Part shown: piece after piece, positions 57,923-62,854 of the stretch
How positions within the stretch are numbered: position 1 is the first letter of the stretch
Layout of the letters: every line of letters begins with the position of its first letter
NCBI GenBank assembly: GCA_019163175.1
Contig: JAFLKN010000020.1
Location: 62,001-126,000, forward strand
DNA: 64,000 nucleotides
Direction of reading: 5' to 3'
Source of the DNA: Prolixibacteraceae bacterium
GTDB lineage: Bacteria > Bacteroidota > Bacteroidia > Bacteroidales > Prolixibacteraceae
Program-made: the position numbers and the translations under genes
Notes under the pieces: model-generated
The model's input: only the letters and a program-made list of their open reading frames with translations
Database searches by the model: none
Told to the model about the DNA's origin: nothing

Positions 57923-59296
57923 CTATTCACTTTCACTATATGCAATTTCATTGTGCTGTGTAATATCCAGACCAGCAATTTCTTCTTTCTGGTTAGCACG
58001 AATTCCAAACAGTTTATCTACAATTTTGAAAAGTACAAATGTCATTACTCCGGAGAATACTATTGTTGCAACGGTTGCAATAAGCTGTATGTAAAGCTGT
58101 TTTGGATTTCCATAGAATAAGCCACTATAAGAAGATTGGATGGCTGGGGTAGCCAACAAACCAGTAGCAAGTGCTCCGATTATACCACCAATTCCGTGTA
58201 CTCCAAAAGCATCAAGAGAGTCATCATAACCAAATTTGTGTTTTACAACTGATACCATGAAGAAACAAACTAATGCAACTATTAAACCGATTACTACTGC
58301 ACCTAAAACTCCAACAAATCCCGCAGCAGGAGTTATCGCAACAAGTCCTGCTACTGCACCGGTAGCGATACCAATAACTGTTGGCTTTTTATTGATTGTC
58401 CAATCGAGTAATGCCCAAACAAATGCGGCTGTTGCAGTTGCTACATGAGTTGCAAGGAATGCGCTAATGGCTAGACCGTCAGCAGCTAATCCGCTTCCTG
58501 CATTAAACCCAAACCAACCGAACCACAATAATGCGGCTCCAATTACCACTAATGGAATGTTGTGGGGTGCAGTTGGATGATTGTTGTAATTTTTTCTTGA
58601 ACCAATCATAAGTGTCATAACAAGGGCGGCAATACCAGCATTAATGTGAACAACGGTTCCGCCAGCAAAGTCTAAAGCTCCCATTTTAAATAACCAACCA
58701 TCAGCTGACCATACCCAATGTGCAACAGGGTTGTAAACAAAGATTGCCCACAAAACTGAGAATATAAGAAATCCACGGAATTTAATGCGTTCAGCATAAG
58801 CACCAATAATTAATGCTGGAGTTATTACAGCAAACATACACTGAAACAATACAAAAGAAAGGTGAGGAATGCGGGCTGTAGCCTGTGAGATGTAGTAAGG
58901 ACTAACGTCGTTAATTCCAATTCCGTTGAGGAATGCCCAATCAAAACCACCAATATATGGAGCAAGAGCTCCGGTGGATGAACTAAATGACAAACTGTAT
59001 CCGAAGAAAACCCATTCTAAAGTAATAACGGCAGTTAAAATAAAACACTGCATGAGGATGTTCAATACGTTTTTCTGACGAACCAACCCACCATAGAATA
59101 AAGCCAAGCCTGGAATGGTCATAAGCAAAACTAAAGCAGTTGCTACTATCATCCATGCAGTATTGCCAAAGTCAATGTAGGGTGTTGGTTCTGGTGCTGC
59201 TACTGCTGCTACCGTTGCCGCTTCTTGAGCAAAAAGTAAGGTTGGGGCGATTAAACCTAGTAAAGCCAGCCCTGTATATCGTAATTTTGTCTTCAT
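57923..59296 (-). CDS. amtB: ammonium transporter
   Basis: Inner-membrane channel of 457 residues. An N-terminal signal-like helix (about 1-23) precedes eleven predicted helices of the Amt fold (AWMIVATALVLLMTIPGLALFYGGLVRQKNVL, WVFFGYSL, FAGGTVVHINAGIAAL with one pore His, DDSLDAFGVHGIGGIIGALATG with the second). It passes ammonium into the cell. The C-terminal tail is short. The gene follows the PII gene by 33 bases; PII proteins of the GlnK type block Amt channels, so the pair should be coupled in function. Confidence 0.97.
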   Translation of the reverse strand: MKTKLRYTGLALLGLIAPTLLFAQEAATVAAVAAPEPTPYIDFGNTAWMIVATALVLLMTIPGLALFYGGLVRQKNVLNILMQCFILTAVITLEWVFFGYSLSFSSSTGALAPYIGGFDWAFLNGIGINDVSPYYISQATARIPHLSFVLFQCMFAVITPALIIGAYAERIKFRGFLIFSVLWAIFVYNPVAHWVWSADGWLFKMGALDFAGGTVVHINAGIAALVMTLMIGSRKNYNNHPTAPHNIPLVVIGAALLWFGWFGFNAGSGLAADGLAISAFLATHVATATAAFVWALLDWTINKKPTVIGIATGAVAGLVAITPAAGFVGVLGAVVIGLIVALVCFFMVSVVKHKFGYDDSLDAFGVHGIGGIIGALATGLLATPAIQSSYSGLFYGNPKQLYIQLIATVATIVFSGVMTFVLFKIVDKLFGIRANQKEEIAGLDITQHNEIAYSESE

Positions 59297-59329
59297 ATAT
59301 TTCTTCTTTAATATTTACTAACTGAGGGA

Positions 59330-59674
59330 TTATTTGTTGTAAAGAGATTCGTCACCTTTGTCTTTGGTGCGGATTCGGATAGATTGTTCTATTTCACTAA
59401 TGAAAATTCGTCCGTCACCACTTTCTCCGGTATAAGCTGATTCAAGAATCGCATTTACCGATTTTTCAACGTTAATGTCGCGAACAACAAATGAGATATA
59501 CATGCGGGCAACAGAGTTTACATCATATGCAATACCTCTGAAGATTAATCCTTGCCGGGCAGTACCCTGTCCTTTTACTTCCCACCAGGACAGAAAGTCT
59601 ATATCAGCTTCGTGTAATGCTGCACGTACTTCTTCGAACTTGGTTTTTCTAACGATGGCTTCAACTTTTTTCAT
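59330..59674 (-). CDS. PII-family nitrogen regulator with a Tyr-to-Phe change in the T-loop
   Basis: Trimeric signal protein of 114 residues. N-terminal KKVEAIVRKTKFEEVRAAL, the B-loop region TGESGDGRIFISE and the C-terminal SIRIRTKDKG are standard. The T-loop reads VKGQGTARQGLIFRG: compared with the E. coli consensus it is one residue shorter, lacks the GRQKGH pattern and has Phe where the uridylylated Tyr51 normally sits. It therefore should not be uridylylated and would sense ATP/ADP and 2-oxoglutarate by binding alone. It lies between the porin and amtB genes, 31 and 33 bases from each. Confidence 0.95.
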   Translation of the reverse strand: MKKVEAIVRKTKFEEVRAALHEADIDFLSWWEVKGQGTARQGLIFRGIAYDVNSVARMYISFVVRDINVEKSVNAILESAYTGESGDGRIFISEIEQSIRIRTKDKGDESLYNK

Positions 59675-59705
59675 AATGTCTTTTTTTGAGGGTTTTAAAT
59701 ATTTT

Positions 59706-60371
59706 TTATAAACTGAATCCTACAACCATGAACATTTGATTTTTGTCTGGATTGAAAACGACTTGTCCGGTGACCGGAACTGAAAAACTGTCGGTTATTT
59801 TGATAACTTTTCCTGTGCCTAATGCAATATTACAAACACTGAATTTTCCATCAGAAGTGTGCCATCCATCACCAGCTCCAACTGTAAGATTGAAGTTTTT
59901 AAAGGCGTAAGCGGCCTGGAAATATTTATCTTTTCCTGCTGAAGCGGGTACTGCTGCTTCGTTTAAAATGTAGTTTGCGCTTAAACTTAAACCACCAACG
60001 GTATAGCCAAGATTGATCTCAACAGCATTTGTAGAATCGGCTGTAAAAGCTCCGCCAGCTCGTGGGTAATAATAGTCTGTTAAACCAATGCTAAGGCCAT
60101 TCGAAAATGCATATGAGATATATGGATCGGCTTCGGCATAACCAGCTGCATCGAAAGATCCCCAAACTCCAATGGTTAATCCACCTGTATTAAACTTTAC
60201 TGAGGGTTGAAATGCAGGTCCGGTTCCAAATAATGAACCTCTCCAGACATAATTGCTGTAAAAGTCAGCACCTGCGGTGAATGAAGATTTCTTTTCTTCT
60301 TCTTGTGCTTTTACATTTAGGGTGCAAATTGCAAGAATTGTAAAAACGAGGAGGGTAATTTTCTTTTTCAT
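59706..60371 (-). CDS. TorF-family putative porin
   Basis: Predicted outer-membrane beta-barrel protein of 221 residues with a signal peptide (about 1-22; NVKAQ). The mature part starts TAGADFYSNYVWRG, the hallmark of the TorF/gcw_chp family, and alternates hydrophobic strands with short turns to a C-terminal aromatic-rich strand (MFMVVGFSL). It is 31 bases ahead of the PII gene, in an operon with amtB, so it may admit ammonium or small nitrogen compounds through the outer membrane. The start at 60371 is chosen over 60380 because MKKKITLL is the usual signal start. Confidence 0.85.
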   Translation of the reverse strand: MKKKITLLVFTILAICTLNVKAQEEEKKSSFTAGADFYSNYVWRGSLFGTGPAFQPSVKFNTGGLTIGVWGSFDAAGYAEADPYISYAFSNGLSIGLTDYYYPRAGGAFTADSTNAVEINLGYTVGGLSLSANYILNEAAVPASAGKDKYFQAAYAFKNFNLTVGAGDGWHTSDGKFSVCNIALGTGKVIKITDSFSVPVTGQVVFNPDKNQMFMVVGFSL

Positions 60372-60432: not shown

Positions 60433-60478
60433 AGGGGGTTGTTCTAACAAAAACTTACTTTTTTCTGATTGACCCCCT
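60433..60478 (-). promoter_or_regulatory. G5/C5 hairpin in the leader of the porin-PII-amtB transcript
   Basis: AGGGGGT (60433-60439) and ACCCCCT (60472-60478) form a 7-base stem around a 32-base loop, within the region that would be 5' leader if the -7 element at 60499-60506 is used. It could act as an attenuator or RNA-binding site; the loop is T/A-rich and no T-run follows. Confidence 0.4.
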
Positions 60479-60498
60479 TTTTATTTGATATGCTTGGT

Positions 60499-60506
60499 CA
60501 AAAGTA
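60499..60506 (-). promoter_or_regulatory. -7 element of the porin-PII-amtB operon
   Basis: Minus strand reads TACTTTTG, an exact TAnnTTTG match, 128 bases before the chosen ATG. The expected -33 position holds no TTTG. Confidence 0.5.
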
Positions 60507-60535
60507 TTTATTTTTTGAAATATTGGGTGGTTGAA

Positions 60536-60660
60536 AAATGGGGGTGTGTGTGAATTAAGGATAAATTAACAAACGAAATGGATTAAAAAATGGGGGTATG
60601 TGTGTAAAAAGTGTAAAATATTTCGATTTTTATTAAAAAAATAGGGGTTTGTTTGAAAAG
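60536..60660 (-). promoter_or_regulatory. three G-tract motifs at ~52-base spacing upstream of the nitrogen operon promoter
   Basis: AAAATGGGGGTGTGTGTGAA (60536-60555), AAAATGGGGGTATGTGTGTA (60588-60607) and a weaker AAAATAGGGGTTTGTTTGAA (60639-60658). The G-tracts start at 60540, 60592 and 60644, 52 bases apart, about five turns of DNA, so all face the same side. They lie 35-150 bases upstream of the -7 element on the minus strand. A fourth G5 at 60434 is 106 bases (about twice 52-53) further on. The layout suggests binding sites for an activator that contacts the promoter cooperatively. Confidence 0.6.
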
Positions 60661-60971
60661 TAGTAGAAATCGACAAGTAGATTCTTGATTATAACTCTAT
60701 GAATATCAAATAGTCTTATTGAATTTTATAAAAAATACTAAAATGATACATATATGTGTTATTAAGTAGAATAAAGATAGATTAATTGATTTATATTGGA
60801 AAAGTGTAAATATATTTTAGAAATGTGATTTTTATTTTAGATGACCTCAAATTCGGGGTTCAAGCTGAATTTTTAGGGCAAGAAACTTTGAAACAATAAT
60901 TCTGCATTGTTACATGTATTAATAATTGCTTTTAAAAGTTTGATGTCAAAGGACTAAAGGAGCAGTTTTTA

Positions 60972-60979
60972 TATATTTG
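60972..60979 (+). promoter_or_regulatory. -7 element of the LtaS-like gene
   Basis: TATATTTG, an exact TAnnTTTG match. It overlaps the earliest in-frame codon (TTG at 60977), which argues for the ATG at 61010 as the real start. Confidence 0.5.
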
Positions 60980-61009: not shown

Positions 61010-62854
61010 ATGCCTTTGTTAGCAAATCAGATTGTTCGGTTCCTTAAGTATTTCATCTTCTGGATGATTTTCTTTTGGATTGCCAAAGTTTTTTTTCTGG
61101 TATCTAATTTTGAGCAAACAAGCCAATTGTCTGCGGCGGAGATATTTGGGATATTTGGCTTTGGATTAAAAATGGATGTTTCCACAGCCTGCTATTTACT
61201 TATTATTCCTGGGTTGATGCTAGGACTGAAGATATTTCTGTCTGCCCGATTTGTGAACCGGTTCATTTGGATTTATACCCTTACTATTTTAATTGTTGCT
61301 TCGTTTTTAGTAGTGCTTGATTTGGGTTTATATCCGCATTGGGGAACCCGCGTGAATATTACTGCATTCAATTACATTGACGATCCTGTGGCAATGAGTG
61401 CATCTGTTTCTATTACTGATGTTTTGCTTGGCTTGTTGATAGTCGGAAGTCTGCTGGTTGTATTCAGCTTCCTTTATCGCCGTATTTTTCCCGAAGGTAT
61501 TGCTATCAATGGTAAACTAAACTGGTATGCTTCTCTTTTGCAGCTTTTCCTTGTTGCTACTTTAATTATTCCGATACGTGGTGGCTTGGATACTTCACCG
61601 CTTAACCTGAGTTCGGTAGCTTTCAGTCCCAAATTATACGTTAATCAGGCGGCAAGCAACTATTTATGGAATTTTGCTAAGTCGGTGGAAAAAAGGAAGC
61701 GCTTATCCAATCCTTGTTCCTATATGTCGAAGGATGAGAGCGTGAGTTTATTCAATACATTTATGCAGAATAACACGCCTGTATTTCGACCACAACTCAT
61801 TAAGCAGAATCCTGAAAAACAGCCTAATGTAATCCTGATTATTCTGGAAAGTTTCTCGAATAAGGTAATTGCACCTTTAGGTGGGCTGCATGGAATTGCG
61901 CCCAATTTAGATTCACTTTGCACCAAGAGTACTGTTTTTACAAATTTTTATTCTACCGGGAATCGTTCAGATCGCGGGATCTCTGCTGTTTTGGGTGGAT
62001 ATCCATCTTTGCTCAGTACCTCTATTATGGTTTATCCTGAAAAGGCAAGGAGTTTAACTTTACTTCCGGAGTACTTCAACCGTCATGATTACAATACCTC
62101 ATTTTATTATGGAGGTGATATTAATTTCTATAACCTTAAAACTTTTGTTCTTCAGAGTAATTGCGGAAAAATAACGACTAAAGCTGATTTTCCTTCTGAA
62201 TTGGGCCGGATGACAAAATGGGGTGTTCCGGATGGCTACATTTTTGACAGGGCTTTGGATGACTTAAAATCAGAAAAAGAACCATTTATGAAAACCATTT
62301 ACACGGTTAGCAGTCATCCGCCTTACGATGTGCCTTACTCAAAGATAAAGGGTAGTTCAAATGAAGCAAAATACCTGAATTCAGTTGCATATACCGATAG
62401 CTGTTTGGGTGCGTTTATTGAAGGGTTTCGTAAATCGCCGCTTTGGAACAATACTTTATTAATTGTTACTGCTGACCATGGACATATGGAGCCAGGTCCA
62501 ACAGATATTACTGCTCCGGCCAGCTATCGTATCCCTTTAATTTGGACTGGAGGAGTTGTTGATTCGCTAGAGCGGATTGAAATCATAACTCAACAGGTTG
62601 ATTTTAGTACATCATTGGTTCATCAATTGGGTTGGGAGGCAGATTCTTCAAAGTTTGCAAAAGATTTCTTTACTTCGCACCCGTTTGCATTTTATATGCT
62701 AGATTCTGGTTGGGGATATGTGACTCCTGAAGGATACCATTATTTCGATCAGGATGTCAACAGTTTTACAGCTAATCCTCAAAAACTGACATTTAATCAG
62801 GACTTTGCCAAAGCTTACATGCAAGTGTTACACGATGACTTTATTGGTAGATAA
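61010..62854 (+). CDS. LtaS/sulfatase-fold membrane phosphotransferase
   Basis: Membrane enzyme of 614 residues: about five N-terminal helices (to about residue 200), then a periplasmic alkaline-phosphatase-superfamily domain (about 265-560; VILIILESFSN, YSTGNRSDRGISAVLGGYPS, YTVSSHPPYDVPY, LLIVTADHGHMEPG). Relatives transfer glycerol-phosphate or ethanolamine-phosphate groups to cell-surface glycans or lipids. The site normally written RTDRG, whose Thr is the covalent nucleophile in LtaS-like enzymes, reads RSDRG here, so Ser would be the nucleophile. Gram-positive teichoic acid is not expected; a lipid A or surface polysaccharide substrate is more likely. The lipid kinase gene follows after 62 bases. 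Confidence 0.87.
   Translation: MPLLANQIVRFLKYFIFWMIFFWIAKVFFLVSNFEQTSQLSAAEIFGIFGFGLKMDVSTACYLLIIPGLMLGLKIFLSARFVNRFIWIYTLTILIVASFLVVLDLGLYPHWGTRVNITAFNYIDDPVAMSASVSITDVLLGLLIVGSLLVVFSFLYRRIFPEGIAINGKLNWYASLLQLFLVATLIIPIRGGLDTSPLNLSSVAFSPKLYVNQAASNYLWNFAKSVEKRKRLSNPCSYMSKDESVSLFNTFMQNNTPVFRPQLIKQNPEKQPNVILIILESFSNKVIAPLGGLHGIAPNLDSLCTKSTVFTNFYSTGNRSDRGISAVLGGYPSLLSTSIMVYPEKARSLTLLPEYFNRHDYNTSFYYGGDINFYNLKTFVLQSNCGKITTKADFPSELGRMTKWGVPDGYIFDRALDDLKSEKEPFMKTIYTVSSHPPYDVPYSKIKGSSNEAKYLNSVAYTDSCLGAFIEGFRKSPLWNNTLLIVTADHGHMEPGPTDITAPASYRIPLIWTGGVVDSLERIEIITQQVDFSTSLVHQLGWEADSSKFAKDFFTSHPFAFYMLDSGWGYVTPEGYHYFDQDVNSFTANPQKLTFNQDFAKAYMQVLHDDFIGR

Follow-up and report, generated by a model that had tools for sequence, protein, structure and literature searches.

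The 64,000-nucleotide window (the whole stretch of DNA that was analysed) carries an array of short G- and C-tracts at the promoter of a porin-PII-amtB operon, and comparison with related genomes suggests that these words are probably operator half-sites of a nitrogen-responsive DNA-binding regulator of Bacteroidia, set in a lattice of dyads and most plausibly used by a class II-like activator. The sites, their spacing, their register with the promoter, their conservation and the set of genes that they precede were all established at the level of sequence (Table 1).

A phased array of tracts at the porin-PII-amtB promoter

An earlier note on this DNA had placed G5 tracts at 60540, 60592 and 60644, with a fourth at 60434, and had regarded all of them as lying upstream of the promoter. 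The plus-strand G5 tracts at 60540-60544, 60592-60596 and 60434-60438 were located exactly there, and the remaining word does begin at 60644, its tract being a G4 (60644-60647) and not a G5. Start-to-start spacings of the tracts are 52, 52 and 106 (taking the T side of each tract instead gives 52 and 51 for the first two), and the proposal that 52 bases amount to five helical turns, with the sites in helical phase, holds. As the -7 element TACTTTTG lies at 60506-60499 on the minus strand, the tract at 60434 falls in the leader, ~60 nt past the inferred start, and only the other three words are upstream of the promoter. Relative to the porin ATG at 60371, the coding-strand C-tracts start at -276, -225, -173 and -67, and a coding-strand G-tract at ~-106 to -102 is a further tract that had been overlooked.

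Named relatives indicate that the genome is a Prolixibacteraceae-like one within Bacteroidales. Across its 5.92 Mb, a search for the 20-nt word that tolerated up to 3 mismatches gave exactly three occurrences, all in this array, which is also the single match in the genome for GGGGT-N44-52-GGGGT-N44-52-GGGGT. When the 638-bp intergenic region was shuffled 20,000 times with dinucleotides preserved, three consecutive tracts at 50-55 bp arose in 0.01% of the trials. The array is thus very unlikely to be a product of chance, and it is conserved. A chance or tandem-repeat origin was ruled out, two units being alignable over only ~38 bp (79%) and conservation following the slots.

Table 1. Features of the porin-PII-amtB operon and its upstream array (positions are those of the window)
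Feature	Position	Strand	Description
Slot A half-site, distal upstream	60638-60657 (G4 60644-60647)		CAAACCCCTATTTT in coding sense; ~-144 to -150 from inferred start; filled in 17/18 same-genus operons
Slot B half-site	60587-60606 (G5 60592-60596)		~-92 to -100; filled in 18/18 same-genus operons
Slot C half-site, promoter-proximal dyad	60535-60554 (G5 60540-60544)		Centre ~39-41 bp before inferred start; filled in 17/18 same-genus operons
Slot D half-site, downstream, opposite orientation	60473-60477		CCCCC on plus strand, GGGGG in coding sense; ~+13 to +17; filled in 17/18 same-genus operons and 31/49 other promoters
Slot E (fourth G5 of the earlier note)	60434-60438		CCCCC in coding sense; in leader, ~+56 to +60; filled in 16/18 same-genus operons and 3/49 in other genera
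AT element TTTGTTAATTTATC-TTAATT, between slots B and C	60553-60573	-	~-75 to -58; near-invariant in alignment; -63 to -47 before TA in promoter-aligned profile
-7 element (TAnnTTTG) of porin promoter, TACTTTTG	60499-60506	-	Conserved in alignment; inferred start near 60494-60495
TorF-like porin gene, first in operon	59706-60371	-	Weak TIGR02001 match, below cut-off
PII (GlnK/GlnB) gene	59330-59674	-	PF00543
amtB ammonium transporter gene	57923-59296	-	PF00909, TIGR00836

Conservation of the slots in related genomes

Relatives of the porin are present in 112 of 149 related genomes, and upstream regions were compared for ~70 operons and for 74 loci from a named genome collection, two sets that partly overlap. 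The tracts in these regions occur in either of two orientations. Same-orientation spacings of 51, 52, 53 and 54 bp were found 8, 25, 33 and 13 times (79 pairs), compared with one pair each at 50 and 55 bp, and a second cluster of same-orientation spacings lies at 103-107 bp. In an alignment of 27 upstream regions, the top conserved blocks were the ACCCC slots, TTTGTTAATTTATC-TTAATT, TACTTTTG and the downstream GGGG. The earlier note had named a lack of conservation of the words or their spacing in relatives as the outcome that would speak against it; instead, each slot held a tract of at least 3 in 16-18 of the 18 same-genus operons, while windows displaced by 16 or 26 bp were filled in 0-2 of them. 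What is conserved is the sequence of the tracts and their exact place relative to the promoter, and not the sequence of the spacers between them. Tracts in register also occur in Mangrovibacterium lignilyticum (L254), a relative in culture.

Within the operon (57923-60371), the porin is ~90% identical to porins that are paired with a different type of PII and AmtB, and the PII and AmtB of the window are ~95% identical to ones paired with a different porin, so that, judged from these identities, the operon looks as if it has been reshuffled between two paralogous sets. At several loci (L106, L113, L119-L121, L307, L310 and L317) the first gene is swapped for an unrelated outer-membrane-like protein of ~260-270 aa, with the array and the promoter kept; the one such protein that was tested (L119) had no Pfam match.

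Promoter architecture and the dyad unit

The -7 element TACTTTTG is the sole TAnnTTTG on its strand of the intergenic region, and a search of that region for TTTG-N17-23-TAnnTTTG returned nothing, which bears out the earlier description of a -7 element without a -33 TTTG at normal spacing. With TA at -11 or -12, as is usual for Bacteroidota, the centre of the proximal dyad, which lies ~28 nt before the TA in the place of the absent -33 box, would fall near -39. An operator centred near -40 relative to this inferred start, together with the absence of a -35/-33 box, is the arrangement of a class II-like promoter. The near-invariant AT element occupies the place (~-75 to -58) where alpha-CTD binds at class II promoters, and it is possibly an alpha-CTD (UP-like) site or the site of a second factor. 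The spectrum of A/T runs in 67 aligned promoters, which were selected for tracts and not for A/T content, peaks at 10.5 bp. A separate TATATTTG element at 60972 (60965-60979, plus strand) belongs to the divergent sulfatase-domain gene, which starts at 61010; this element and the array are more than 300 bp apart, so the porin operon is most likely the only one that the array serves.

The register of the tracts was counted on 98 TAnnTTTG elements with no selection for tract position (126 distinct upstream regions). C-tracts start 36-38, 88-91 and 140-144 nt before the TA, and G-tracts end 16-19, 69-72 and 121-123 nt before it; downstream of the TA, a G-tract ends at 32-35 nt and a C-tract lies at 65-68 nt, so that the lattice extends through the promoter and past the inferred start. 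The two series repeat every ~52.5 bp, with an offset of ~19 nt between them; they are most simply read as one dyad per slot with either half dominant. The unit of a slot is accordingly well supported, by tract positions and partner halves, as a putative dyad ACCCC-N11-GGGGT (~21 bp) that usually has one strong half. At the two proximal slots, the partner-half G fraction was 0.19 and 0.32, compared with 0.03-0.22 in shifted windows, and the partner-half C fraction was 0.20 and 0.33, compared with 0.05-0.11. The third slot has little dyad symmetry, which leaves the support for the dyad short of proof. The directional G-tract word that had been taken as the unit gives way to this description, as half of such a dyad describes the sites better.

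The array pattern precedes nitrogen-assimilation genes

Arrays in relatives precede genes for glutamine synthetase, GSIII, PII-amtB, amtB, asparagine synthetase B (asnB) and NifA-like proteins. In 392 Bacteroidales genomes, the G-oriented pattern with a promoter gave ~47 matches versus ~12 for a reversed control, and 21 of the 30 loci that were read precede GSIII (12), porin/PII/amtB (7) or NifA-like genes (2), the remainder being about the number that chance would give. With the C-oriented pattern, ~26 of 30 loci in 149 relatives lie before porin/PII/amtB or GSIII. The matches cover more than 10 family labels within Bacteroidales. A phylum-wide sample added two matches outside the order, both in one family of the same class, before a porin-amtB operon and before a gene whose product we read from its sequence as a UrtA-like binding protein; most other matches outside the order look like chance. 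The signal is not particular to the porin-PII-amtB operon; it is a putative operator pattern common to GSIII, glutamine synthetase, PII-amtB, asnB and NifA-like genes, as expected of a nitrogen regulon.

In the genome of the window itself, a two-site pattern gave 15 matches, no more than its control. The clearly A/T-rich ones were the porin array and one directly before a second amtB (L135/L189, contig C18 near 61217), which has array-like G-tracts upstream. The GSIII promoter of this genome (L191, upstream of 1655) has two ACCCC words ~31 bp (three turns) apart, and a full 52-bp array is absent before this gene. Searches for the full dyad with a promoter were confounded by terminator hairpins, though amtB, GSIII and porin-PII again followed several of the A-rich matches. 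In other genomes, the bare three-site pattern picked up REP-like tandem repeats with a period of 50-56 bp as well, which were set aside for want of an A-rich context. These repeats, with ACCCC/GGGGT cores, occur in G045 C10, G173 C20, G200 C6, G149 C107, G479, G451 and G068 C43 and mimic the spacing by coincidence.

Candidates for the regulator

Clustering of 965 neighbouring ORFs from 74 operons revealed no conserved regulator near the operon, with gltB found near 24 of the 74, and the GSIII loci examined likewise had no regulator beside the gene. One amtB (L124) is followed by an NtrC-type response regulator, which fits poorly, since it is of the sigma-54 type and the promoter is TAnnTTTG. 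MerR-family operators are ~21 bp wide and have ACC...GGT ends. The geometry of the 21-bp ACC...GGT dyad fits this form; its position at ~-39 does not fit the usual location in the promoter spacer. The MerR_1 profile finds just two proteins in the genome, one of which has 111 aa, lacks a ligand domain and matches many structures of the MerR family, including GlnR, weakly in sequence. We treat this protein as a lead only, and think it unlikely to be the regulator of the array.

A model for the lattice and its alternatives

In the arrangement that we consider probable, a dimeric regulator would occupy dyads spaced 52.5 bp apart (five 10.5-bp turns), and, as the slots recur at five turns, the bound dimers would face the same way. 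Bound at ~-39, it would contact and recruit RNA polymerase of the sigma-A type in a class II-like manner; the proximal slot, ~39 bp before the start and over the missing -33 box, makes a class II-like activator the most likely form. The upstream slots (~-92 and -144) and the downstream slots (~+17 and +60) may contribute cooperativity in binding, and bending of the DNA may be eased by the A/T periodicity of 10.5 bp. The signal is likely to be low nitrogen, given that the targets serve ammonium assimilation and that the orthologous genes of Prevotella ruminicola 23 change together with ammonium, the direction of the change being stated inconsistently in the text of that study (PMC5552732). Occupation of all slots by one protein, its cooperativity, activation and the low-nitrogen signal are what we infer beyond the sites themselves. 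A stronger form, which we hold only tentatively and think somewhat improbable, is that the regulator forms one continuous nucleoprotein lattice across the class Bacteroidia, with a strict five-turn period unbroken through the promoter (~-144, -92, -39, +13 to +17 and +60) and RNA polymerase inside it.

Slots that lie downstream, over the start region, would suit repression equally well, and the main rival to activation uses the same sites as operators: a protein would bind under nitrogen excess, block polymerase over ~-39 and +17 and be released at low nitrogen, following the logic of AmtR or of Bacillus GlnR. The slots do flank and overlap the promoter, and slot D, just past the start, is among the most conserved. 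However, with no -33 box the promoter looks weak without help, and a slot exactly in the -33 place together with an AT element in the alpha-CTD place fits activation better; neither is decisive, and we regard repression as the unlikely, though still serious, reading. The A/T runs at 10.5-bp periodicity would also suit intrinsic curvature or a general nucleoid protein, in which case the bend would come from phased A-tracts, the G-tracts would be just one component of it, and no regulator would be dedicated to the sites. This is very improbable, as the sites are restricted to nitrogen genes and conservation covers the tract sequence and its exact promoter place but not the spacer sequence. More improbable still is an RNA element in the 5' leader, in which the coding-strand GGGGG (60477-60473) would pair with CCCCC (60438-60434). 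The leader folds best with a GGGGGU/ACCCCC stem, but the z-score of the fold is only -1.58 and there is no Rfam match; both tracts lie on the upstream lattice, the arms have no compensatory change in the leader alignment, and of 49 promoters in other genera, 31 keep slot D but only 3 have slot E.

Comparison with known nitrogen-control systems

The earlier note had remarked on the absence of sigma-54/NtrC-type sites, and a pattern search of the intergenic region agrees: it contains no sigma-54 -24/-12 match (TGGY-N7-9-TGC or GG-N10-GC), NtrC box (GCAC-N5-GTGC), NifA upstream activating sequence (TGT-N10-ACA), GlnR/TnrA operator (TGTNA-N7-TNACA), NtcA site (GTA-N8-TAC) or CRP site (TGTGA-N6-TCACA) near -41.5. 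GlnR and TnrA of Bacilli are small MerR-family regulators that act at ordinary sigma-A promoters through a short dyad with an AT-rich centre, on a nitrogen regulon including glutamine synthetase and amtB-PII. The array resembles this system in its nitrogen targets, glutamine synthetase and amtB-PII among them, and in its short dyad with an AT-rich centre, but has ACCCC-N11-GGGGT in a five-turn lattice and no TGTNA-N7-TNACA. At class II nitrogen promoters of cyanobacteria, the CRP-family regulator NtcA uses one operator near -40 in place of a -35 box. Nitrogen genes and an operator near -40 that replaces a promoter box are shared with the array, whereas its half-sites are further apart and it has several sites, repeated every 52.5 bp and present beyond the start as well. 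In the sigma-54/NtrC and NifA systems, too, sites lie upstream of glnA, amtB and nif genes; here, in contrast, the promoter is TAnnTTTG and NifA-like genes are themselves targets. The -7 element TAnnTTTG matches the consensus of ordinary Bacteroidota sigma-A promoters, from which this one differs in that an operator slot occupies the place of the -33 TTTG. We know of no promoter in bacterial nitrogen-control systems that is built as a continuous five-turn lattice with polymerase inside. A survey of the sigma-54 regulon did not find nitrogen metabolism enriched outside the classes that it lists (PMC12316311). No Bacteroidota nitrogen operator or named regulator was found in a library of open-access literature, and within that scope the novelty of the array is provisional.

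Guts, rumen, soils and sediments harbour abundant Bacteroidia, which take up and assimilate ammonium via GSIII, GOGAT and AmtB-PII. Control of nitrogen-assimilation genes by ammonium has been measured in Prevotella (PMC5552732). An array conserved before such genes across Bacteroidia points to a nitrogen regulator for which no published description was found, and an operator of exact geometry makes the question of the Bacteroidota nitrogen regulator directly approachable by experiment, with the five-turn lattice as a testable model of cooperative control.
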